Assembly: GCA_028874905.1 (NCBI GenBank)
Contig: JAPPGZ010000097.1
Location: forward strand, 1-54,863
Direction: 5' to 3'
DNA: 54,863 bases
Source: Gemmatimonadota bacterium
GTDB taxonomy: Bacteria > Gemmatimonadota > Gemmatimonadetes > Longimicrobiales > Gaopeijiaceae
Part shown: positions 28,932-40,220 of the stretch, piece by piece
Numbering within the stretch: the stretch's first letter is position 1
How the letters are laid out: the number at the start of each line of letters is the position of its first letter
The notes under the pieces: model-generated
What the model saw: the letters and a program-made list of their open reading frames with translations, nothing else
What the model was told of the DNA's origin: nothing
Databases searched by the model: none
Made by a program: the position numbers and the translations under genes

Positions 28932-30299
28932 CTACCTGCGAAAGCTCCTGATGTCGACGGCGACGGGCCCGCCCGCCGAAGCGATGCTGTCGGCCAGCGT
29001 GAACGTCCCTGGCTCGTAGCGGAAGATCTGCGGCGGCAACCCCTCCCGCACACTCCCGAAGAAGGTCTGGTAGAGTGATCCGTCCGCGGCCGTGTGCGCG
29101 GCAAAGGCCCCCCGGCATCCGCCGCCGTCCAGGGGCGCGCAGATCGGATCGGTGGCGTCCCGCACAAACGCTCCCGTGGCCGTGTTCCAGGCGACCGTGC
29201 CCGCGAAGAAGGCCGACGCGAAGAGAATCCCGTCCCGCGAGACGTGCACGTGCCCCGAGCCCGAGGGGAATCCGCCGGCCAGGCCCACGCGCTCCAGCGT
29301 GACCGGATCGATGATCGCCACGGTCGATGGAGCGACATAGTCGCCCGTGTTCATCACATACAGCGTTCCGTCGGGCCCGACGGCGGCCAGTTGCGGATTG
29401 GTGCCCCCCGTCTCGATCTCGGCGGTCACGGTCATGGTGTGCGGATCGAGCACCGTCACCACCCCGTTGCCGGCGGGAGCGTAGCTGTCGTCCAGGTTCG
29501 CTGAAATCACGAAGGCGAGCGAGTCCGAAAACGGCACGATGCTCGTCGGGAACCGCGTCACCGAAACGAGGTCGGTAATCGTGCCTCCGCCCTGTCCGAG
29601 CGTGAACCTGCCCACTTCGTCGGTTTCCTGGTTGGCGACGAGCACCGTCCGGTCGTCCACGAAGGCCGAGCCGGTGGCGTTGCCGGACTGGAACAGGAAG
29701 TACGACGCGATTTGCCGGCTGCGAAGATCGATCGTCGCCACCGAGGCCGCGTTGCCCAGCGGCACCACCGCGGTCTCTCCGCGGATGCTGATCCCCGTAG
29801 CGGTCACGGCGCTCGAAGCACCCAGAGCGATATCGTGCCGCTCTTCCGGATCGCCCACCTGGAAGAGCCGTACCGCGTTGGCCAGCGAATGTACGACGAT
29901 CCCGATCTGCGGATCCCCGACGGTCCCGTCGAGAAACTCGAGCTCCTCGACCAGCAGCGAGACTGCGGCGTCGCCCGTGTTGCCGTCCGAATCCGTCGCG
30001 GTGAGCGTGATCGTATGGACGCCCGTCGACGGCAGGGTCACGTCCAGCGCCGAGCCGGTGCCGAGGGAGCCGTCGATCGAACTCGACCAGGCCAGGGCCG
30101 CGGCCCCGAGAGGACCATCCTGTGGATCGTCGGCGCTGCCGGCCAGCTGAATCGGCACGCCCTCCGGGAGCGTGATCCCGGATGCCGGCGACGTAATGAC
30201 GGCGGTCGGGGTGTTGGGCCCGGTGGGCGTTTCCTCGCTGCAGGCGGCCAGCCCGGCGAGGGCGATGAGGATGGTGGGGCGGAGGGCGGTGTGAGTCAC
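28932..30299 (-). CDS. surface beta-propeller lipoprotein, candidate BtuG-like corrinoid binder
   Basis: 455 residues from a GTG at 30299 (AAAAAGGACGAA upstream). The lipobox ends at Cys20 (GLAAC), followed by acidic and polar residues. About 30-125 is an Ig/PKD-like domain (TAVITSPASG to ITLTATDSDGNTG). The rest is a YncE-like propeller with blades such as STVAIIDPVTLERVGLAGG and GVVTVLDPHTMTVTAEI. It is 64 bases after the BtuB-like receptor gene, downstream of the same cobalamin riboswitch. In Bacteroides, BtuG is a propeller lipoprotein that sits on BtuB and captures B12. The equivalent role here is inferred from fold and position; no corrinoid-binding residues can be assigned. The longer upstream frame was rejected because the lipobox would be internal. 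Confidence 0.85.
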   Translation of the reverse strand: MTHTALRPTILIALAGLAACSEETPTGPNTPTAVITSPASGITLPEGVPIQLAGSADDPQDGPLGAAALAWSSSIDGSLGTGSALDVTLPSTGVHTITLTATDSDGNTGDAAVSLLVEELEFLDGTVGDPQIGIVVHSLANAVRLFQVGDPEERHDIALGASSAVTATGISIRGETAVVPLGNAASVATIDLRSRQIASYFLFQSGNATGSAFVDDRTVLVANQETDEVGRFTLGQGGGTITDLVSVTRFPTSIVPFSDSLAFVISANLDDSYAPAGNGVVTVLDPHTMTVTAEIETGGTNPQLAAVGPDGTLYVMNTGDYVAPSTVAIIDPVTLERVGLAGGFPSGSGHVHVSRDGILFASAFFAGTVAWNTATGAFVRDATDPICAPLDGGGCRGAFAAHTAADGSLYQTFFGSVREGLPPQIFRYEPGTFTLADSIASAGGPVAVDIRSFRR

Positions 30300-30363
30300 G
30301 AGATCTTCGTCCTTTTTGCAGTGAGGGTGAGGAATGGTGCTCGGTGCGGGGGAATGGCCATGT

Positions 30364-32547
30364 TCATCGCCCGGCTCCGACGCGTAGCCGGATCGACCAG
30401 CCACGGCCCGGCAGGGGATAGTCGGCGAGGAGCGCGGCGCGCTCGTCGAGGATGTTGTTCACCGCGAGGTCGAGCCGTCCGGATGCCTTTCCGAACGCGA
30501 CCGGAATCGCGACCCCGGTGTCGAACAGGGTGTAGCCCTCCAGTTCGTTCAGGCCCGAGCCGGGCACCGTGCGCCGTTCTCCGACGTGGGTCGCCGCCGG
30601 CGCGAGCGTGGCTCCGCCGGGAAGCGCGATCCCCAGCGAGAGGTCCGCGGTGAACCGGGGGCGGTAGGCGACCTGGCCGTCGAGCACGGGTCCGGTGTAC
30701 GCCACCTCCGACCAGGCGGCGTTCACGGTGATCGAGTGGTCCGCCTTGCCTGTGACCAGGTCGGCGGCGGCACCGACTTCGAGACCCCGGCGCGTCACGT
30801 CGTAGTTTTCGGGACTCCACACGAAGCGGTGGTCCGGAAACCAAAGGATCATGTCGTCCAGGTCCGCACGGTAGGCGGTTCCGCGAACCTGCCCGGCGGC
30901 TGGTCCCAGGGACCATGCATGCGACAGGGAAACGGAGAATTCCCCGCGAATGCGTTCCGGCCTGAGGTCCGGGTTGGGCTCGACGAGCACTCCTTCCTGG
31001 AAGAACAGGTCGCCGAGTCCTGGTGGCGAGAAGCCGCGTCCCCAGCGCAGGTCGGCAGTGAGGCCCGCGCGGGTCAGGACTGCGTCGACAGCAGGCGATA
31101 TGGTGGTGCCGTCGACGAGATCGTGGCGGTCCGCGCGGGCGGCGGCGCCCAGGTCGAAGCGGATGCCGTGCCCGAGCTCCCAGGTGCGCCCGGCCCGTGC
31201 CCACGCCCCGAACTCGCCAAGGTCGACCGCGGGGGACGCGAGTGCATTGGACGCAATGTCGAGCCGGGCGGCGTGAAGACCGGCCCGCAAGGAAGGCGCC
31301 TCCTGCCGCCACCATCCTTCCAGCGCGAGTTCGGCGCGGCGCACGCGGGTCCGGGTGTCGTAGGGGCGGCCGAAGGGAGGCGCCGGGTCGGCGAACTCGG
31401 CGCGCTGCCACTGGACCGCGGTGCGGGCCGTGCCGCCCAGGCCGGGGTCGCCGGGCTCGATTCCCGCGCTGACGCCCCAGCGCCGGTGGTGTTGACGGCC
31501 GCTCAGCGACGGCTGCGCTATCGTTCCCGGGCTGCCGCGCTCTGTATTGCTGATGTGGGTGCGCAGCGACGCGTTCAGTCCGCCCTGCCGCGTGACACGA
31601 ACATCGCCTCCCGCCCGAGTGTAGGCGGCGTTCTCGCGCGTCGTCTCGCCGCCGCCACGGAAGGCGGGCACGTCGTAGGTAAAGGCGCCGCCGGAATGTC
31701 GCCACCGTGCGGACGCGGCCACCGACCAGGCCATCCCCACTGGCCGCGACACCGTTGCTGCGGTCTCGGCGGAAGACCAGGAGCCTGTTCCGGCAGTAAA
31801 CGTGGCGGCTGCATGACCGGCGTCGCGGCTCTCCAGCAGTATGGCTCCCCCGAGGGCCCCGGGGCCATACTGCGTCGACTGCGCGCCCGGGATCACGACG
31901 ATGCGCGCCAAACCCTCGAGGTCCACGGTTCCGAGGTCCGCCTCACCGGTCAGGGGCGAATTGACAGGTGTGCCGTCGAGGAGGACCAGCACCTGGTCGC
32001 CGCCCGAGCCGCGGAGCTGCACGACGGCGGGCGCGCCCGGCCCCCCTCGCCGAACAACCGTCGCACCCGGGACGCGGTCGAGTGCGGCGGCCAGGTCCGC
32101 CACAACGGGAGGAAGGCTCGCCACATCCACGATTGTCGCCCGGCCCACCCCTTCACGGGAGGCGACCCGCACATCCAGCCCCGGGAGTCTCACGGGTGCG
32201 GGGTCGAGCACCACGCTCGCACGCGTCAACCGGCCGTTGACAGCTTCGACTTCGAGCGTGGCCTCCGCGAAGCCGAGCGCCGAGACGGTCACCGCGTGCC
32301 GTTCCGGCGGCAGGCCGCGCAGCAGGGCGCTCCCGCCAGCGTCGGTCAGCGCAGTGATGCCAGTGCCCAGCACGGTGACGGTCGCGCCCGCGACCGGGAT
32401 CGTCGTGGCCGGAACGTTGCCATGCCCGGCCGCTGGCGCGGCGGGTGCCGCAAGCACTGTCACGTGAACGGTTGCCCTGACCTGGGCACGCAGCTCCGCC
32501 GATGGGACCAGTATCGCGGCGGCGAGCAGCGTTGCGGCTCTTCTCAC
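30364..32547 (-). CDS. btuB: BtuB-like TonB-dependent cobalamin receptor
   Basis: 727-residue outer membrane receptor from a GTG at 32547. The signal peptide (MRRAATLLAAAILVPSAELR) is cleaved near RAQ. A carboxypeptidase-like beta domain (IPVAGATVTVLGTGITALTD) precedes the plug, which has the typical GATVVRRGGPGAPAVVQLRG, VLVLLDGTPVNSPLTGE and GALGGAILLESR. The barrel extends to LRVGAGR at the end. Ligand assignment rests on the cobalamin riboswitch immediately upstream and the divergent B12 operon; the plug also resembles BtuB-type receptors. The long upstream open frame runs through the riboswitch and was trimmed. Confidence 0.9.
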   Translation of the reverse strand: MRRAATLLAAAILVPSAELRAQVRATVHVTVLAAPAAPAAGHGNVPATTIPVAGATVTVLGTGITALTDAGGSALLRGLPPERHAVTVSALGFAEATLEVEAVNGRLTRASVVLDPAPVRLPGLDVRVASREGVGRATIVDVASLPPVVADLAAALDRVPGATVVRRGGPGAPAVVQLRGSGGDQVLVLLDGTPVNSPLTGEADLGTVDLEGLARIVVIPGAQSTQYGPGALGGAILLESRDAGHAAATFTAGTGSWSSAETAATVSRPVGMAWSVAASARWRHSGGAFTYDVPAFRGGGETTRENAAYTRAGGDVRVTRQGGLNASLRTHISNTERGSPGTIAQPSLSGRQHHRRWGVSAGIEPGDPGLGGTARTAVQWQRAEFADPAPPFGRPYDTRTRVRRAELALEGWWRQEAPSLRAGLHAARLDIASNALASPAVDLGEFGAWARAGRTWELGHGIRFDLGAAARADRHDLVDGTTISPAVDAVLTRAGLTADLRWGRGFSPPGLGDLFFQEGVLVEPNPDLRPERIRGEFSVSLSHAWSLGPAAGQVRGTAYRADLDDMILWFPDHRFVWSPENYDVTRRGLEVGAAADLVTGKADHSITVNAAWSEVAYTGPVLDGQVAYRPRFTADLSLGIALPGGATLAPAATHVGERRTVPGSGLNELEGYTLFDTGVAIPVAFGKASGRLDLAVNNILDERAALLADYPLPGRGWSIRLRVGAGR

Positions 32548-32644: not shown

Positions 32645-32850
32645 GACGGAGGAGAGGTCTCCTGGCTTGGGACGGATCCGCTCGCCTTCCCGGGCATCGC
32701 TGCCCAGTGGCCTGGTTGAGCGGGTCCCCACGGAATCGGAATCCCGTGTCCCTTTACAGTGGCGGGGCCGCGCCGGTCTTTCACCGGACTTCCGAGCGCC
32801 CCTCCGTCTGCGAGTTGTGAAGGAATGGGTAGTATCTCCGGCCTCCGTGC
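32645..32850 (-). promoter_or_regulatory. cobalamin riboswitch upstream of btuB
   Basis: Read on the minus strand it has the conserved elements in order: GGAAGTCCGGTGAAAGACCG, GCGCGGCCCCGCCACTGTAA, then GCCACTGGGC, CCCGGGAAGGCG, and the B12 box AGCCAGGAGACC (32659-32670). This is the standard cobalamin aptamer. Adenosylcobalamin binding would lower expression of the receptor and the propeller lipoprotein. The 5' end is approximate. A second copy is on the opposite strand for the B12 import and salvage operon. Confidence 0.93.
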
Positions 32851-32987: not shown

Positions 32988-33212
32988 CGCTGTAGCGAGG
33001 GGGCCACCGGAAGTCGGTCGGAAGCCGACGCGGCCCCGCCACTGTGGGAGGCCCGGATCCCGGACCGGATCCGGCTTGACGCGCTCGACAGCCACTGGGG
33101 TTTCCGTTGCGGGCCGATTGCCGCAGGCGGATGTGACGGACCGCCGTCACGGATTGCTGGCGCCCCGGGAAGGCGAGCGTCGTCGCCTCGAGCCAGGAGA
33201 CGCGGCGCCCTC
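32988..33212 (+). promoter_or_regulatory. cobalamin riboswitch upstream of btuF
   Basis: Conserved elements in order are GGAAGTCGG/CCGACGC, GCGGCCCCGCCACTGT, CAGCCACTGG, CCCCGGGAAGGCGAG and the B12 box AGCCAGGAGACG (33191-33202). It is the same aptamer family as the minus-strand copy, with a variable stem that looks longer. It should control the whole btuF-to-btuD operon. The 5' end is approximate. Confidence 0.92.
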
Positions 33213-33245: not shown

Positions 33246-34151
33246 GTGTACATCGAAAACCGTCGGCCCGCGTTTCTAGTCCTCGCCGCCGTTCTCCCGC
33301 TGCTTGCCTCCTGTGCGCCGGCCGACGGTGCGAAACCATCGGCGCTTGCCGTCGCGGACGACACCGGACGCACCGTGTCGCTGCCCGCACCCGCCCGCCG
33401 GGTCTTCTCCGTCATCCCGTCGCTGACCGAATCGGTCACGGCGCTCGACCACGAAGTCCTCGTCGCCCGCACGCGCTTCGACCGGGCGCCCGAACTTGCC
33501 CACCTTCCTTCTCTGGGTGACGCCATCCGTCCAAACCTTGAGGCATTGGTGCGACTTGAACCCGATCTCGTCATCAGTTGGGACGATCCGGATCAGCGCA
33601 CCTTCGCCGACCAGGTCGCGGCGCTGGGCATACCGGTCTACCGTGCCAACGTGCAGACGATCGCCGACGTGCGCAGCCATTTACGGCGTCTGGGCGTCTT
33701 GCTGGGAAGGGGTGAACGGGCCGGGGCGCTGGTGGACTCGCTGGATCAGGCGCTTGCCCGCGTCGCCGCGTCAGTCCGGGGGCGCGACCGGGTGGCCGTC
33801 TACTACTCCGTCTGGCACGACCCGCCGCAGACCACCGGGCCCGGGACCTTCATCGACGAGGTCATCGAATACGCGGGCGGAAGGAATGTGTTCGGCGATG
33901 CCTCGAACGCCTGGCCGCTGGTGTCCCTCGAGGCGATCCTGCAGCGCAGTCCTGAAGTGCTGGTGATTGCCCGCCACTCGGAGGACCGGCCTGCGGCGCC
34001 CTGGCTCGACGGGCCCGGCTGGCGGGAACTGGAAGCCGTCCGCACCCGGCGGTATCTGCTGGTGGAGGGGGACCTGTTCAATCGCCCGGGTCCACGCGTG
34101 GCCGAGGCGGCCCGGCGACTGGCCCGCTTTCTGCACTTTGAGCGAGAATGA
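33246..34151 (+). CDS. btuF: BtuF-like cobalamin-binding lipoprotein of ABC importer
   Basis: 301 residues from a GTG at 33246 with the ribosome site GAGGGAGGGG. The lipobox ends at Cys23 (PLLASC), so it is membrane-anchored. The class III binding-protein fold is evident: VADDTGRTVSLPAPARRVFS, then IPSLTESVTAL, LVRLEPDLVISWDD, and a second lobe with GGRNVFGDASNAWPLVSLE. It delivers corrinoid to BtuC/BtuD, whose genes end the same operon. The identification relies on the cobalamin riboswitch and on the cob and btu genes downstream, because the fold alone would also fit siderophore binders. Confidence 0.9.
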   Translation: MYIENRRPAFLVLAAVLPLLASCAPADGAKPSALAVADDTGRTVSLPAPARRVFSVIPSLTESVTALDHEVLVARTRFDRAPELAHLPSLGDAIRPNLEALVRLEPDLVISWDDPDQRTFADQVAALGIPVYRANVQTIADVRSHLRRLGVLLGRGERAGALVDSLDQALARVAASVRGRDRVAVYYSVWHDPPQTTGPGTFIDEVIEYAGGRNVFGDASNAWPLVSLEAILQRSPEVLVIARHSEDRPAAPWLDGPGWRELEAVRTRRYLLVEGDLFNRPGPRVAEAARRLARFLHFERE

Positions 34152-34194: not shown

Positions 34195-35421
34195 ATGAGT
34201 GTCCCGCGTTCCACCCCCGCTCGTTCACCTCTTGGAGCCCGTGGACAAAACCCCGCCGGCATTCGAGCGGCGATGCATCCGGGCCGGACGCTAGGCCGGT
34301 GCTCGGGCGGCTTTGTCCACGGACTCCTTGCGGCCGCCGCCGTGGCTCTTTTGCTCGGCGCCCCTGCCGCGGCACAATCCCCCGAACTCGTGTTCCTGTC
34401 GAACATCACCGGCACGGTACGCGACGGTGCGGCGCTTGCGACCGTCGAGGAGCAGACCGCGGCCGCGCTGGACGCGCTCGGAAAGGAGCTGGGGGCGCAC
34501 GGGCTCGGCTACGAAGACGTCGTAGCGGTCAACGTGTTCCTGAGAGACACCCGGCACTTCCAGGCGATGAACGGGGTCTACCGCGGCTACTTCCCGGTCG
34601 ACGCGCCCACGCGTGCGACCGTCGAGGCCGATCTCCCCGACCGGGACGCGCACGTGCAGATCTCGGCGGTTGCCACACCGGACGAGACCGAGGTCATTTC
34701 GCCAGCGGGGCTGCAGTCACCGGCGCTCCCGTATTCCTGGGGCATCCGCGTGGGCGATGTGCTCTTCATCGCGGGCGCGACGAGCCGTGATCCAGAGACC
34801 TATCAACCCGTGGGAGGCGACGTGCAGGCCCAGACGCGGCGCGTCTTCGGGAACATCGGGATGATCCTGGAAGAGGCCGGAATGGGCTACGGTGACCTCG
34901 TGAGCTGCAAGGTCTTCCTGGACGACGTGCGCCTGTGGGGCGACATGAACGAGGCGTACCGCGAGTTCGTCACTGCGGAGGATCCGCCTGCACGGGCGGC
35001 GGTGCGCGGTGGGCTCATGAATCCGGCATTCCTGGTCGAGATCCAGTGCGTGGCGGAGCGGTCGGACGAACGCCGCGTTGTGCTGCGCGACGGTCAGCAG
35101 CGGGGACGGTCACCGCTGTCCCCGGCCATCGCGACCGCCGGGCGCGTCTGGCTAGCCGGTATGCTCGCGCGCGGGGAAGACGCGCGGGACGAGGCGCGGA
35201 ACACACTCGCCAGTCTCGAGGGAACGCTCGAGGCCGCGGGACTGGGGTTTGGGGACGTGGAGGACGTTTGGGTCTATCTGACCGACGTGCGCGATGCACC
35301 GGCCGTGCTGGAGGTACTGGCCGAGGTGATGCCGGGCGAAGTGCCGCCGGTGACCGTTGCGGGGCTGCCCCTGGTGGGTCGTTTGGGGGTGGAGATCCAG
35401 ATGACGGCGGTGGTGCGCTGA
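34195..35421 (+). CDS. secreted triple RidA-domain protein in B12 operon
   Basis: 408 residues from the ATG at 34195 (AGGAT upstream); an ATG at 34273 would leave a neater 35-residue signal peptide. The signal peptide core (GLLAAAAVALLLGAPAAAQ) starts right after a REPIN-like palindrome that encodes residues about 14-45. Three RidA/YjgF domains follow. Domain 1 (about 65-162) and domain 2 (about 180-288) keep the active-site Arg (Arg140 in PTRATVEA, Arg267 in PARAAVRG). Domain 3 (about 300-408) has PPVTVAGLPL and has lost it. RidA normally hydrolyses reactive enamine/imine intermediates in the cytoplasm as a homotrimer; a secreted single-chain trimer-like form is unusual. It lies between btuF and cobT, 7 bases before the latter. 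Confidence 0.85.
   Translation: MSVPRSTPARSPLGARGQNPAGIRAAMHPGRTLGRCSGGFVHGLLAAAAVALLLGAPAAAQSPELVFLSNITGTVRDGAALATVEEQTAAALDALGKELGAHGLGYEDVVAVNVFLRDTRHFQAMNGVYRGYFPVDAPTRATVEADLPDRDAHVQISAVATPDETEVISPAGLQSPALPYSWGIRVGDVLFIAGATSRDPETYQPVGGDVQAQTRRVFGNIGMILEEAGMGYGDLVSCKVFLDDVRLWGDMNEAYREFVTAEDPPARAAVRGGLMNPAFLVEIQCVAERSDERRVVLRDGQQRGRSPLSPAIATAGRVWLAGMLARGEDARDEARNTLASLEGTLEAAGLGFGDVEDVWVYLTDVRDAPAVLEVLAEVMPGEVPPVTVAGLPLVGRLGVEIQMTAVVR
34234..34327. repeat. REPIN-like palindromic repeat inside the 5' end of the RidA gene
   Basis: Two 19-base arms in inverted orientation, 34234-34252 and 34309-34327, match at 17 positions (GGAGCCCGTGGACAAAACC against the reverse complement of the right arm). 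They enclose about 56 bases. The right arm and its flank are the same unit as the single copy at 5941-5970. The RNA would form a long hairpin early in the coding region or, if the later start is used, in the leader. Confidence 0.6.
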
Positions 35422-35428
35422 GCCACTC

Positions 35429-36532
35429 GTGAGCACACCCGCCGCGCTGCTGGAGGGGGCGATCGGCCGTGTGGCGGCCGGTGCTCCGTCGGGGGACCCG
35501 GCCGCGGTCCAGGCGCACATCGACGCGCTGACCAAGCCGCCCGGAAGCCTCGGCCGCCTTGAGGAACTGGCGCTCCAGGTGGGTTGTGTGCTGGGCGATC
35601 CGCCGCCCTCCCTCGACCGCGCCGTCGTGTTCGTCTTCGCGGCGGATCACGGGGTCGTCGCGCGGGGGGTGTCGGCGTACCCGGCCGAGGTCACGGCGCA
35701 GATGTGCGCGAACTTCTCCGGCGGCGGCGCGGCGATCAACGTCCTTGCGCGTGCGTGCGGCACCGAGGTGCGGGTGGTCGACGTGGGCGTCGCGGCGGAT
35801 GTCGCCGGGTCGGAAGGGATCGAGCATCGCAAGGTCCGCGCGGGGACGGAAGATCTGTCTGCGGGTCCCGCGATGACGGCGGCCGAGGTCATGGCGGCGC
35901 TGGCGGTTGGGGTGGAGGTGGCGGCGAGTGCCGAGGCGTGGATCGTGGGCGTGGGCGAGATGGGTATCGGGAACACGACCGCGGCGGCGGCGGTGACGGC
36001 TTGCCTTACCGGGGCCGCGGTGCATGAGGTCGTGGGCCGAGGTACCGGGATCGACGACCATGGACTGGCCCGCAAGCGCGACGTGGTCAAGCACGCGATG
36101 GCACGGGTGGTTCGGCGCGACGACACCCGGGACGATGCGCTACAGGTGCTGCGCCAGGTGGGCGGACTCGAGATCGCGGCGATGGCGGGAGCCATGATCG
36201 GGACGGCGGCGCGGGGCGCGCTCGTGCTGGTGGACGGCTTCATCTCCTCGGCCGCGGCGCTGGCGGCCTGCCGCCTGTGCGCCGCCCTGCCGGCGTACCT
36301 TGTCGCGTCGGTCGCGTCGCACCGATCGACCGAGCCCGGCCACGCGGCGGTGCTCGACGCGCTCGGGCTGGTGCCCCTGCTCGACCTGGAAATGCGGCTG
36401 GGCGAGGGAACGGGGTGCGCGCTCGCCATCCCGATCGTGCAGGCGTGCGGTGCCCTGCTCGCCGAGATGGCGACATTTCAGTCGGCCGGGATATCGGGGC
36501 CGGACGGAAATGTGCCTGGAGGCGCTCCATGA
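35429..36532 (+). CDS. cobT: nicotinate-nucleotide--dimethylbenzimidazole phosphoribosyltransferase
   Basis: 367-residue cytoplasmic enzyme that makes alpha-ribazole phosphate, the lower-ligand nucleotide of cobalamin. The start is a GTG at 35429. Hallmarks are LTKPPGSLGRLEELA near 31-45, the FAADHGV segment, GEMGIGNTT near 178, VGRGTGIDD, and the catalytic Glu in LGEGTGCALA near 330. Length is typical. It overlaps cobU by ATGA. No bluB-type gene for making dimethylbenzimidazole is in the window. Confidence 0.95.
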   Translation: MSTPAALLEGAIGRVAAGAPSGDPAAVQAHIDALTKPPGSLGRLEELALQVGCVLGDPPPSLDRAVVFVFAADHGVVARGVSAYPAEVTAQMCANFSGGGAAINVLARACGTEVRVVDVGVAADVAGSEGIEHRKVRAGTEDLSAGPAMTAAEVMAALAVGVEVAASAEAWIVGVGEMGIGNTTAAAAVTACLTGAAVHEVVGRGTGIDDHGLARKRDVVKHAMARVVRRDDTRDDALQVLRQVGGLEIAAMAGAMIGTAARGALVLVDGFISSAAALAACRLCAALPAYLVASVASHRSTEPGHAAVLDALGLVPLLDLEMRLGEGTGCALAIPIVQACGALLAEMATFQSAGISGPDGNVPGGAP

Positions 36533-37062
36533 TGACGCTCATCGTGGTGACCGGAGGCGTCCGCTCGGGCAAGAGCCGGTGGGCGCAGGACGAAGCGCTG
36601 GCCCACGGAGGCGAAGAGGTCACCGTGATCGCGACCGCCGAAGCCGTCGACGACGAGATGCGTGACCGGATCGAGGCGCACCGCCGCAGTCGTCCCGCAG
36701 GGTGGCGCACCATCGAGGCGCCGGAGCGGGCGGGGGAGGCTATCCTGGCCGCCAGGACCGATACGGTCGTGCTGGACTGCGTGACCGTGCTCACCGGCAT
36801 GGCGATCGGGCGATCGGGCGCGCAGAGCGAGGCCCTGGCGTTGGAGGCGATGGCCGCCGAGATCGACGGGATCCTCGAGGCGAGTGAGGTGCGCGCCGGA
36901 GTACTCATCGTCGTGACGAACGAGGTGGGATGGAGCGTGCATCCGCCCACCGCGCTCGGACGCTGGTACCAGGACGGATTGGGCATTGCCAATCAGCGTC
37001 TCGCCGCCGCCGCGGACCAGGTGGTGCTCATGGTCTCCGGGCTGGAGACGCGACTCAAGTGA
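36529..37062 (+). CDS. cobU: adenosylcobinamide kinase / guanylyltransferase
   Basis: 177-residue bifunctional enzyme that phosphorylates adenosylcobinamide and then attaches GMP. The Walker A loop is GGVRSGKS at 9-16, followed by RWAQDEA. The switch region ATAEAVDDEMRDRIEAHRRS holds the His expected to carry the GMP intermediate. VVLDCVTVL and VVTNEVGWSVHP are the usual later motifs. The start overlaps the cobT stop (ATGA) and the end overlaps the cobS start (GTGA). Confidence 0.95.
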   Translation: MMTLIVVTGGVRSGKSRWAQDEALAHGGEEVTVIATAEAVDDEMRDRIEAHRRSRPAGWRTIEAPERAGEAILAARTDTVVLDCVTVLTGMAIGRSGAQSEALALEAMAAEIDGILEASEVRAGVLIVVTNEVGWSVHPPTALGRWYQDGLGIANQRLAAAADQVVLMVSGLETRLK

Positions 37063-37838
37063 GGACCGCTCTCCGGGGCGCGCGCGCCGCCTTCGTCTTC
37101 ATGACCCGTGTGCCGGTGGGCGGTTTCCCGTACTCGGCCCAGGAGTGGCGTTGGGCGTCGGCGTGGCTACCCCTGGTCGGGCTGGTCCTCGGGATCGTGT
37201 GCGCGGGGGTGTGGTGGCTGGCGGCTCCGATGGGACCGTGGGTCGCCGCGATCACCGTGCTGGTTGCGTCGATCCTGTTGACCGGCGCGTTCCACGAAGA
37301 CGGGCTGGCTGACACCGCCGATGCGCTGGGCGGAGCGCACGATCGAGCGAAGATCTTCGTCATCCTCAAGGACTCGCGGGTTGGTGCCTTCGGGGCGCTC
37401 GCTCTGATCGTCTCGATCGCGTTCCGGTTGGTGCTGCTCGCGCAGCTGACGGGCGCTGCGCCCTCCGCCCTGCTGCTCGCGCACTGCCTTGCGCGGGTCG
37501 GGCCCGTCTGGCTGATGGTCGCCATGCCCTACGTTGGCGACGCGGCGGCGAAGAGCCGTCAGATCACCCGTGCCGGGCCGGCCCAGGGCGTTCTCGCGAC
37601 CGCAACCGGCGTGGCCGTGGCCATGGGCGTGGCGCTGGCCGGGGGCGCGATCGACTCAACCGCCGCCCTCGCGGCATTTGCTGCGATGGCCCTCGCCACC
37701 GCCTTCTGCGGCTGGCGGTTCCGTGCGCGGGCGGGCGGATTGACCGGTGACTTCCTGGGCGCCGCGGAGCAGGTGAACGAGATCGTGATCCTCTTCACAA
37801 TTCTCGCGGTGCTGCAGGTGGCAGGGTTCGCCCCGTGA
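37059..37838 (+). CDS. cobS: adenosylcobinamide-GDP ribazoletransferase (cobalamin synthase)
   Basis: 259-residue inner membrane enzyme joining adenosylcobinamide-GDP to alpha-ribazole (phosphate). The family motif FHEDGLADTADALGG lies near 76-90. Several membrane helices are visible (WLPLVGLVLGIVCAGVWWLA, AITVLVASILL, ALALIVSIAFRLVLLAQL, GVLATATGVAVAMGVALAGG and the C-terminal IVILFTILAVLQVAG). The GTG start overlaps cobU; the stop overlaps cobC (GTGA). Confidence 0.95.
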   Translation: MRTALRGARAAFVFMTRVPVGGFPYSAQEWRWASAWLPLVGLVLGIVCAGVWWLAAPMGPWVAAITVLVASILLTGAFHEDGLADTADALGGAHDRAKIFVILKDSRVGAFGALALIVSIAFRLVLLAQLTGAAPSALLLAHCLARVGPVWLMVAMPYVGDAAAKSRQITRAGPAQGVLATATGVAVAMGVALAGGAIDSTAALAAFAAMALATAFCGWRFRARAGGLTGDFLGAAEQVNEIVILFTILAVLQVAGFAP

Positions 37839-38413
37839 TCCGCCTCCTCGCCATCCGCCACGCGCCCGTGACCGTCGAGCGGGTCTTCTACGGGCAGACC
37901 GATGTGCCCACGACCCTCGACGCCAGCGAGGCGACCGCGCGCATCGAGCACACCGTGGCCGAATTCGGCCCGGGCACCATCTGGTCGTCCGAAGCCGTTC
38001 GCTGCCGGGAGCCCGCCGCACTGCTGTCGAAGCGGCTCGGCGCGCCACACCGCGTCGACGAGCGGGTCCGCGAGATGTCCTATGGCGATTGGGAGGGTCG
38101 GGCCTGGGACGCCGTGCCGCGCGCCGAAGTCGACGAGTGGATGGCCGACTGGCAGACTCGATCCCCCCCGGGGGGTGAGAGTGTCACCGCGTTCACCGAA
38201 AGGGTCGCCACGTGGTGGCGGGAACTCGAGCCGGGACACCACTTCCTCATGGCCCACGCTGGAGTGGTGCACTGCCTCGATGTCGTCGCCGGCGGCCTCG
38301 CCTGGGAGAAGACCGTCGACCAGCGACTGGACTTCTTGCACGCCAAACGGTTCACGCGGGCTCGCTCGTCCCTGGCGCACCGTCCTTCGAGCGAGGGGAT
38401 CCGCCCCAAGTGA
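37835..38413 (+). CDS. cobC: alpha-ribazole phosphatase (histidine phosphatase family)
   Basis: 192-residue enzyme that removes the phosphate from alpha-ribazole or cobalamin 5'-phosphate. The phosphohistidine motif is IRHAP (His9), with Ala in place of the usual Gly after His. The CobC-like FYGQTDVP follows. Also present are the conserved Glu segment EMSYGDWEGR and the second His in MAHAGVVHC. The GTG start overlaps cobS and the stop overlaps btuC. Assignment over a general phosphatase rests on YGQTD and its place in the operon. Confidence 0.92.
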   Translation: MIRLLAIRHAPVTVERVFYGQTDVPTTLDASEATARIEHTVAEFGPGTIWSSEAVRCREPAALLSKRLGAPHRVDERVREMSYGDWEGRAWDAVPRAEVDEWMADWQTRSPPGGESVTAFTERVATWWRELEPGHHFLMAHAGVVHCLDVVAGGLAWEKTVDQRLDFLHAKRFTRARSSLAHRPSSEGIRPK

Positions 38414-39405
38414 CTCACGCACCCCGTCGGCTTGCCCTCCTCGCGCTCGTCCTCCTGGCCGCGGTCGCGTTCAGCGTCTCCTTCGGCGCCTCCGGACTCG
38501 GCCCCGGCGACCTGTGGCGTGCGCTCTCGGCCGACGGCGACCCCACCGCGCGATCGATCCTGCTGCAGCTGCGGCTGCCGCGCGCCGCGCTGGCCGCGCT
38601 CGTCGGCGGCGCGCTTGGCCTAAGCGGCTGCACCTTTCAGGCACTCCTGCGCAACCCGCTGGCCGACCCGTACGTGCTCGGCGTGTCGGGGGGAGCCGCG
38701 GTCGGCGCGGTGGCGATCGTCGTGACCGGAATCGGCGTCGTTCTTCCCTGGGCGCTCCCGGTCGGCGCGTTCCTTGGTGCGGTGGCCGCGATGGCGCTCG
38801 TCCTGGAGGTCGCGCGGCGCGCCTCGCCCGGGGGGATGGACACGCGGGTCCTGATCCTCTCCGGGGTCATCATCGGCGCTTTCTTCAACGCCATCATCCT
38901 GCTCATGCTCTCGATCGCCGACGTCGAGTCCTTTCGCTCGGCCATCTTCTGGATGATGGGCAACCTGTCGGGCGCCGACTGGGGCTCGACATCGCTGCTG
39001 GCGGTGTTGCTCGTGCCGACGGGCGCCGCGGTGCTCTCGCTGGCTCGCGCCTTCAACCTCCTGTCGCGGGGCGAGGAGGTTGCGCACTACCTGGGCGCTT
39101 CGGTGCAGCGGGTGAAGCTGACTGCCTATCTGGCCGCGTCGCTGATGGTCGGCGCGGCGGTCGCGGCCGCTGGCGTGATCGGCTTCGTCGGACTGATCGT
39201 GCCGCACGCGGTGCGACTCGCATGGGGGAACGATCACCGCCTGCTCCTCCCCGCGTCGTTCCTGGCCGGGACGACGTTCCTCCTGGTGGCGGACACGGTG
39301 GCGCGGCTGGTCGTTGCACCGGCCGAGCTGCCGACCGGAGTGGTCACCGCTGTGGCCGGGGTGCCCTTCTTCGTGGCGCTGCTGATGCGCGGAGGGCGGC
39401 GGTGA
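38410..39405 (+). CDS. btuC: cobalamin ABC transporter permease
   Basis: 331-residue FecCD-type permease with about ten membrane helices. Signatures are QLRLPRAALAALVGGALGLSG, FQALLRNPLADPYVLGVSGG and the coupling segment AAAGVIGFVGLIVPHAVRL. The GTG start overlaps cobC (GTGA) and the stop overlaps btuD (GTGA). Substrate is inferred from riboswitch control and the neighbouring btuF and cob genes. Confidence 0.94.
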   Translation: MTHAPRRLALLALVLLAAVAFSVSFGASGLGPGDLWRALSADGDPTARSILLQLRLPRAALAALVGGALGLSGCTFQALLRNPLADPYVLGVSGGAAVGAVAIVVTGIGVVLPWALPVGAFLGAVAAMALVLEVARRASPGGMDTRVLILSGVIIGAFFNAIILLMLSIADVESFRSAIFWMMGNLSGADWGSTSLLAVLLVPTGAAVLSLARAFNLLSRGEEVAHYLGASVQRVKLTAYLAASLMVGAAVAAAGVIGFVGLIVPHAVRLAWGNDHRLLLPASFLAGTTFLLVADTVARLVVAPAELPTGVVTAVAGVPFFVALLMRGGRR

Positions 39406-40220
39406 CCGCCGACGGGCGCCCCGTGCTGCAGGGCCTCGGCCTGACCTTCACGCATCCGCGCGCGGAAGAGCCCGCCGTGCGTGACATCTCGGTGGCCGTG
39501 AATCCCGAGCAACTTCTCGCCGTCGTCGGCCCGAACGGTGGGGGAAAGACCACGTTGCTGAGGCTCCTCACCGGCTCGCTGGCGCCGCAGCAGGGTGAAG
39601 TGCGGCTCGGAGACCAACCCCTAGGCGAACTCGACGACCGTGAGCGGGCCCGTGCGCTCGCGGTGGTGCCGCAATCCGAGTTCTCGCCGTTCCCCGTTAC
39701 GGTACGGGAGATGGTGGGGATGGGGCGCTACGCGCACCTCGGCCCGTGGGAGCGCACCGGCGCGCACGACCGGGCCGTGGTGGAACGCGCGCTGGAGCGG
39801 TGCGCCGTCGCCGAGTTCGCCGAGCGTCAGCTCGGTGAGCTCTCCGGAGGTGAACGCCAGCGTGCCCGCATCGCGCGGGCGCTTGCTCAGGAAGCCCCCA
39901 CGCTGCTTCTTGACGAACCCTCGGCCGGACTCGACCTGCGCTACCGCATGGAGCTCTTCCACCTGCTTCGGGAACTGCGCGCCGAGGGACTTGCCGTGCT
40001 CGTCATCACTCACGACCTGAACCTCGCGGCTCGTTTCGCCGACCGTCTGCTGCTCCTCGACCGCGGTCGGGCAACGGCCCGCGGGGCCCCCGAAGACGTG
40101 CTCTCACGCGAGGCTTTGGAGGCCGTATACGAATGGCCGCTCCGGCTCGTTCCGCACCCCGGACCCGGGAGCGACACCGGCGCGCCGCAGACGATCCCGC
40201 TCAGGAGGGACGATCCGTGA
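39402..40220 (+). CDS. btuD: cobalamin ABC transporter ATPase
   Basis: 272-residue ATPase. Walker A is GPNGGGKTT at 43-51, the Q-loop is VVPQSEFSPF, the signature is LSGGERQRARIARAL near 147-161, Walker B is TLLLDEPSAGLD, and the switch His is in VITHDLNLAARFAD. Start is a GTG overlapping btuC. Last gene of the operon; its 3' end overlaps the convergent Ig-like lipoprotein gene by 20 bases. Confidence 0.94.
   Translation: MTADGRPVLQGLGLTFTHPRAEEPAVRDISVAVNPEQLLAVVGPNGGGKTTLLRLLTGSLAPQQGEVRLGDQPLGELDDRERARALAVVPQSEFSPFPVTVREMVGMGRYAHLGPWERTGAHDRAVVERALERCAVAEFAERQLGELSGGERQRARIARALAQEAPTLLLDEPSAGLDLRYRMELFHLLRELRAEGLAVLVITHDLNLAARFADRLLLLDRGRATARGAPEDVLSREALEAVYEWPLRLVPHPGPGSDTGAPQTIPLRRDDP

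Follow-up and report, generated by a model that had tools for sequence, protein, structure and literature searches.

The DNA analysed here (hereafter the window) is a stretch of 54,863 nucleotides, contig JAPPGZ010000097.1 of a Gemmatimonadota bacterium (assembly GCA_028874905.1), its minus strand carrying, in order, a cobalamin riboswitch, a BtuB-type TonB-dependent receptor and, after a gap of 64 bases, the propeller lipoprotein that is our main subject. The riboswitch (32657..32793, minus strand) matched Rfam RF00174 with 69.4 bits (gathering threshold 31.5, E 4e-15), and the receptor (30364..32547, minus strand) combines a Plug domain (Pfam, 7.6e-18) with an N-terminal carboxypeptidase-regulatory-like domain (CarboxypepD_reg, 2.2e-10), its best solved relatives in the PDB including a B12 TonB-dependent transporter of Bacteroides thetaiotaomicron (8bmx_C, 3.2e-13) and BtuB of Escherichia coli. 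The three features by which a BtuB receptor was recognized, namely the Plug domain, a BtuB-like sequence and the cobalamin riboswitch, are all present. Since TIGR01779 (TonB-B12) of NCBIfam ranked first among 23 families and yet scored 88.5 bits, under its equivalog cut-off of 599.7, the receptor is, as judged from its sequence, a divergent BtuB-like protein. The lipoprotein gene (28932..30299, minus strand) has a GTG start codon and encodes 455 aa beginning with a signal peptide and lipobox (30240..30299, minus strand), in which the lipid-anchor cysteine, Cys20, occupies the same position in close relatives. The first-pass annotation had placed a TonB receptor under a cobalamin riboswitch and a lipoprotein 64 bases past it, and both statements hold. 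The gap itself (30300..30363) was scanned, and neither a promoter-like nor a terminator-like site was found in it.

The same annotation had described the lipoprotein as an Ig/PKD-like domain joined to a YncE-like propeller, and the AlphaFold model (mean predicted local distance difference test score, pLDDT, 93; predicted template modelling score, pTM, 0.86) agrees with this description. Indeed, the Ig/PKD-like domain (about residues 30-118; 29946..30212, minus strand) displays confident strands at residues 32-118 and residues 29-110 match a solved bacterial Ig domain (E 0.0023), while the PKD and Ig matches in Pfam stay under the cut-off (best 8e-4, residues 43-109), this part having been judged within the full-length model and searches. 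Residues 122-455 (28935..29936, minus strand) are predicted to form a seven-bladed beta-propeller, the 28 model strands being read as seven four-stranded blades, in agreement with Foldseek and with the invariant columns of the 58-row family alignment, among which are Cys387 and Cys395. A second family member, devoid of the Ig-like domain, was likewise modelled as a seven-bladed propeller. When the propeller faces were assigned manually from the strand list, the loops appeared better conserved on one face (0.77) than on the opposite one (0.63; permutation p 0.003), as a ligand face would show. In addition, a lipobox was recognized by our own sequence pattern in 49 of 53 survey proteins, and the +3 residue is acidic in 31 of these 49 family lipoproteins versus 6 of 43 BtuF lipoproteins of the fetched loci (Fisher p 1.6e-6, a value that is too small because the rows are related). 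This difference hints at a distinct sorting of the family and of BtuF, without proving surface exposure; to our knowledge, no lipoprotein export signal has been defined for Gemmatimonadota.

Our survey of 200 Gemmatimonadota genomes detected a profile match to the lipoprotein family in 65 of them (E 0.001), of which 58 were inspected (57 fetched loci and the window), the remaining 7 being weak matches (E 4.7e-5 or worse). The conserved linkage to btuB that the first-pass reading had proposed to check in relatives is present, as the gene lies in a btu cluster in 51 of the 65 genomes: after a TonB receptor in 39, after btuD in 11 and directly before btuF in one. The other inspected matches comprise two undecidable cases at contig ends, four weak matches outside btu clusters (E 1.3e-5 or worse) and one fragment beside btuFCD; this fragment (L068:7528-7881, plus strand), which converges on a btuFCD cluster headed by a riboswitch, has the appearance of a degraded gene copy. 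Three gene orders recur, namely riboswitch-receptor-lipoprotein, riboswitch-btuF-btuC-btuD-receptor-lipoprotein and riboswitch-btuF-btuC-btuD-lipoprotein, and the gap between receptor and lipoprotein reaches 687 bases in one of the 39 genomes (L070). Among the 54 genomes with the best matches, a same-strand upstream riboswitch was found in 41, with contig ends cutting 6 of the 13 misses; note that these counts are Rfam matches, some of which a simple pattern search missed. Where the lipoprotein follows btuD with no adjoining receptor (L055-L059, L069, L135, L141, L142, L145 and L146), 10 of the 11 genomes have a separate riboswitch in front of a TonB receptor (with a btuF-like gene in between in G008), and in the eleventh, G119, the sole riboswitch belongs to the cluster of the lipoprotein itself, a receptor elsewhere not having been sought. 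The lipoprotein of L057 occupies the btuD-recO slot, in which L102 has a partnerless receptor (btuB).

In a homologue search, among the 120 matches listed, out of 365 proteins at E 0.001 in a pool of the 7996 candidates with the most words in common, all those with a named organism belong to Gemmatimonadota or taxa within, and the family proteins are mostly annotated as hypothetical in the source databases. In a species genome collection, two short peptide patterns located 22 loci, several of which share contigs with the 200-genome survey; 20 of them carry Gemmatimonadota-type names, the others being L013 and L024, and a receptor then a lipoprotein is found in 21 of the 21 loci other than L024, which comes from Bacteroidia and matches the Ig domain only. 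The loci whose product is 72-89% identical to the lipoprotein are titled Gemmatimonadota in 11 of 12 cases. The twelfth, L013, on a contig labelled Acidobacteriota, carries the receptor-lipoprotein pair at 72% identity, which reflects either transfer or a binning error. At another locus (L017:66-3155), one receptor precedes two tandem family members.

The lipoprotein is also associated with one group of receptors. Our receptor tree contained 75 rows, namely 37 receptors with an adjacent lipoprotein, 27 partnerless ones hand-picked among the riboswitches listed (and hence not a random sample), 10 split ones and one Bacteroidia receptor; the window's own receptor is a row in neither of our two trees, and L075 (a fragmentary receptor), L073, L074, L082, L083, L088, L090 and L094-L099 were kept out of them. 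As many as 30 of the 37 lipoprotein-adjacent receptors cluster together with no partnerless row among them (support 93), and the lone Bacteroidia receptor, on a long branch, joins this group at 99. All the partnerless rows and all the split ones fall on the opposite side of the tree, together with 7 paired rows from a single family. When E. coli BtuB and 17 Bacteroidota receptors were included in a wider tree, the partnerless receptors grouped with E. coli BtuB, and of the 19 paired rows in this tree 15 form a group separate from both the E. coli-like and the Bacteroidota BtuBs; this quick, unrooted tree, with support from the Shimodaira-Hasegawa-like approximate likelihood ratio test (SH-aLRT) only, cannot tell which group is sister to which, so that a Bacteroidota origin of the paired receptors is undecidable from it. 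The split row L100, whose genome (G107) has its lipoprotein elsewhere (L142), falls in the E. coli-like group.

Moreover, the N-terminal carboxypeptidase-regulatory-like domain occurs in 6 of 6 paired receptors tested and in the window's, versus 0 of 3 partnerless receptors and 0 of 1 from Bacteroidia. In the window's genus, the lipoprotein is found in 4 of 15 other genomes; six of the 11 genomes without it were placed in the tree, all with an E. coli-like receptor. No lipoprotein of this family was found after the receptor at the partnerless loci. A single case was noted, again in the window's genus, of a lipoprotein-like gene for a DUF5128 six-bladed propeller (L076:6103-7431, plus strand; E 4e-7) after a partnerless BtuB. 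The identities of lipoproteins and of receptors covary (Spearman 0.68, 666 pairs from 37 loci), a correlation that shared descent alone could produce.

The nearest known counterpart is BtuG, a B12-binding surface lipoprotein of Bacteroidota (Pfam DUF5074), stated by Wexler et al. to be exclusive to Bacteroidetes on the basis of BlastP on 313 human gut genomes, with an origin discussed as an outcome of dense-gut competition (PMC6143338), and whose complexes with BtuB were described by Abellon-Ruiz et al. (PMC10404256). Both are lipoproteins with a seven-bladed propeller (predicted here), adjacency to btuB and control by a cobalamin riboswitch, whereas the window's subfamily is marked by a cysteine pair and by different invariant motifs, some Gemmatimonadota members bear an Ig-like domain, and the partner receptors fall in another group. 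The structural comparison with Bacteroides BtuG was favourable by one measure and not by the other. By Foldseek E-value against the PDB, BtuG chains take ranks 1-14 for the window model and 16 of the first 17 places for the second, Ig-less member; by VIA-align Z, the archaeal S-layer propeller 1l0q comes first (35.6) and BtuG1 (32.1) stands amid other generic propellers, the second member again placing BtuG level with them. Structure hence makes no choice between BtuG and other propellers, as the two methods disagree. We know of no role in B12 uptake for the YncE- or YVTN-type bacterial propellers or for 1l0q.

A profile built from 44 Bacteroidota BtuG homologues, checked on solved BtuG (8.6e-102), gave the window protein 11.4 bits and the best member of the wider family 52, while other Gemmatimonadota propellers reached 75; in the reverse direction, with the family profile, such control propellers equalled or exceeded BtuG (the Bacteroidia BtuG locus L155 being in this search set and not in profile G2). 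Note that the controls were chosen, non-randomly, through lactonase or DUF5074 matches, and that two of them, L164 and L191, represent a single gene; the 13 control loci checked, whose stretches span 2.1-3.5 kb, revealed no btu gene, TonB receptor or riboswitch pattern. These controls cancel the support for BtuG membership that would come from hhalign of the two families (probability 94.7 over 148 columns), from the family profile against the PDB (BtuG1 at 3.1e-5) and from Pfam DUF5074, which is the most frequent propeller family among members (21 of 58 with an E of 0.1 or lower, 8.2e-5 for the best) and which the window protein does not match (12.5 bits, cut-off 27.2). No PF16819 match was found in the window's genome. 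The NEGNF-type motif, to which our motif comparison was confined (PMC10404256 also names aromatic residues of the site), occurs in 89 of 120 BtuG homologues versus 3 of 53 family proteins. Of the related or convergent system outside Bacteroidota that had been suggested, the predicted fold, lipidation, gene order and linkage stand, so that this reading is partly supported. By its genomic context and fold the lipoprotein apparently works like BtuG, but it is apparently no member of that family, in which it cannot be placed. BtuH and DUF4465 (BtuJ) are also extra, B12-binding lipoproteins of riboswitch-controlled B12 loci, BtuH being likened by description only; DUF4465 differs as a separate Pfam family that the window protein does not match, and it was reported across eight clades in a paper whose main text does not contain the term Gemmatimonad (PMC13398666). 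Literature searches, to which most subscription journals were external, returned no description of this propeller-lipoprotein family or of BtuG in Gemmatimonadota.

Altogether, the direct observations, that is, gene order, riboswitch, lipobox, predicted fold, phylum-wide linkage and association with one receptor group, suggest that the lipoprotein is probably dedicated to the import of corrinoids (vitamin B12), the mechanism being taken as a whole. Under B12 scarcity, the riboswitch would permit joint production of receptor and lipoprotein, and the latter would be anchored to the outer membrane by Cys20, most likely on the external side. Corrinoids would then be bound at one face of the propeller, by its conserved loops, and delivered to the neighbouring receptor, on which the lipoprotein may sit as a lid comparable to BtuG on BtuB. 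From the receptor, corrinoids would pass to BtuF and BtuCD, and incomplete ones would be finished by CobU, CobT, CobS and a CobC-like enzyme. Taken separately, corrinoid binding by the lipoprotein seems quite likely to us and its surface exposure likely, and a stable complex with the receptor appears reasonably probable.

As to the location of the lipoprotein, a protein facing the periplasm could instead take the corrinoid from the receptor there and pass it to BtuF without any surface capture. Such an arrangement would suit the 11 genomes in which the gene follows btuFCD away from a receptor, and no published lipoprotein export signal was found for Gemmatimonadota, nor do we know of a surface-export machinery in this phylum. 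We nevertheless regard it as unlikely, given the 39 genomes with the gene after a receptor, the grouping of 30 of 37 such receptors and the residues after the cysteine, in which the family is unlike the BtuF proteins of the loci fetched. Import of something other than a corrinoid, e.g., a cobalt chelate, would fit the riboswitch control equally well, but it is improbable with the same lipoprotein family found inside btuF-btuC-btuD clusters and with corrinoid nucleotide-loop assembly encoded by the divergent genes. Propellers are common (a lactonase-family match occurs in 31 of 41 genomes), and an unrelated six-bladed-propeller gene follows the receptor at L076, so that incidental adjacency of an unrelated YncE-like surface protein could be imagined; a linkage maintained in 51 of 65 matching genomes, over several gene orders and families, makes it hardly credible.

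The origin of the lipoprotein is a distinct question, because a true relative of Bacteroidota BtuG, albeit an extremely diverged one, that was inherited or received with a BtuB would be compatible with dedicated corrinoid import. The Foldseek ranking of both models, the hhalign, DUF5074 and PDB matches and the identical gene order speak for such descent. It seems doubtful when other Gemmatimonadota propellers score as high or higher in both directions, when the paired receptors are not nested in the 17 Bacteroidota BtuBs (the unrooted tree being silent on sister groups) and when those tested carry an N-terminal domain absent from the single Bacteroidia BtuB tested. Another scenario has, in our view, chances a little short of even: a YVTN-type propeller would have been independently recruited in Gemmatimonadota for B12 capture, as a lipoprotein whose corrinoid pocket is its own, and would have co-evolved with a distinct lineage of receptors that bear the extra N-terminal domain. 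Species of one genus would then exchange this pair for a partnerless BtuB of the E. coli-like type, controlled by a similar riboswitch, and so provide a natural experiment on what drives the evolution of capture partners for B12. A counterpart of BtuG widespread in Gemmatimonadota, which inhabit soils, waters, sediments and sponges, would mean that B12 capture with a propeller partner is not confined to the gut and might have had more than one origin. The close relatives with and without the partner can be compared, and a lipoprotein family mostly annotated as hypothetical receives a testable role.

On the plus strand, a second, divergent cobalamin riboswitch (33009..33201; RF00174, 38.1 bits), the only other one found in the whole genome, heads salvage and ATP-binding cassette (ABC) import genes. 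The host probably depends on imported corrinoid, judging from its gene content, because no CobI/CbiL match at E 0.001 was found in the genome (94.8% complete), which contains three B12-binding-domain matches. B12 import in Gemmatimonadota was previously inferred by two genome-based or other published surveys, with mention of btuB, a lipoprotein partner not being mentioned in the parts of these papers covered here (PMC10581226, PMC10469786). The plus-strand genes start with a btuF-like corrinoid-binding lipoprotein (33246..34151; Pfam Peripla_BP_2 7.1e-23; NCBIfam BtuF 5.5e-30, under that model's curated cut-off) and continue with cobT (35429..36532; DBI_PRT 2.3e-122), cobU (36277..37062; CobU 8.1e-48, the domain starting near residue 89 of the open frame), cobS (36930..37838; CobS 4e-46), a phosphatase called cobC-like from its position (37835..38413; His_Phos_1 5.4e-26), the btuC permease (38404..39405; FecCD 3.4e-92) and the btuD ATPase (39420..40220, start not fixed; ABC_tran 2.9e-30). 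Between btuF and cobT lies a gene for a triple RidA-like protein (34195..35421), in which Pfam Ribonuc_L-PSP matches three stretches (1.6e-55).

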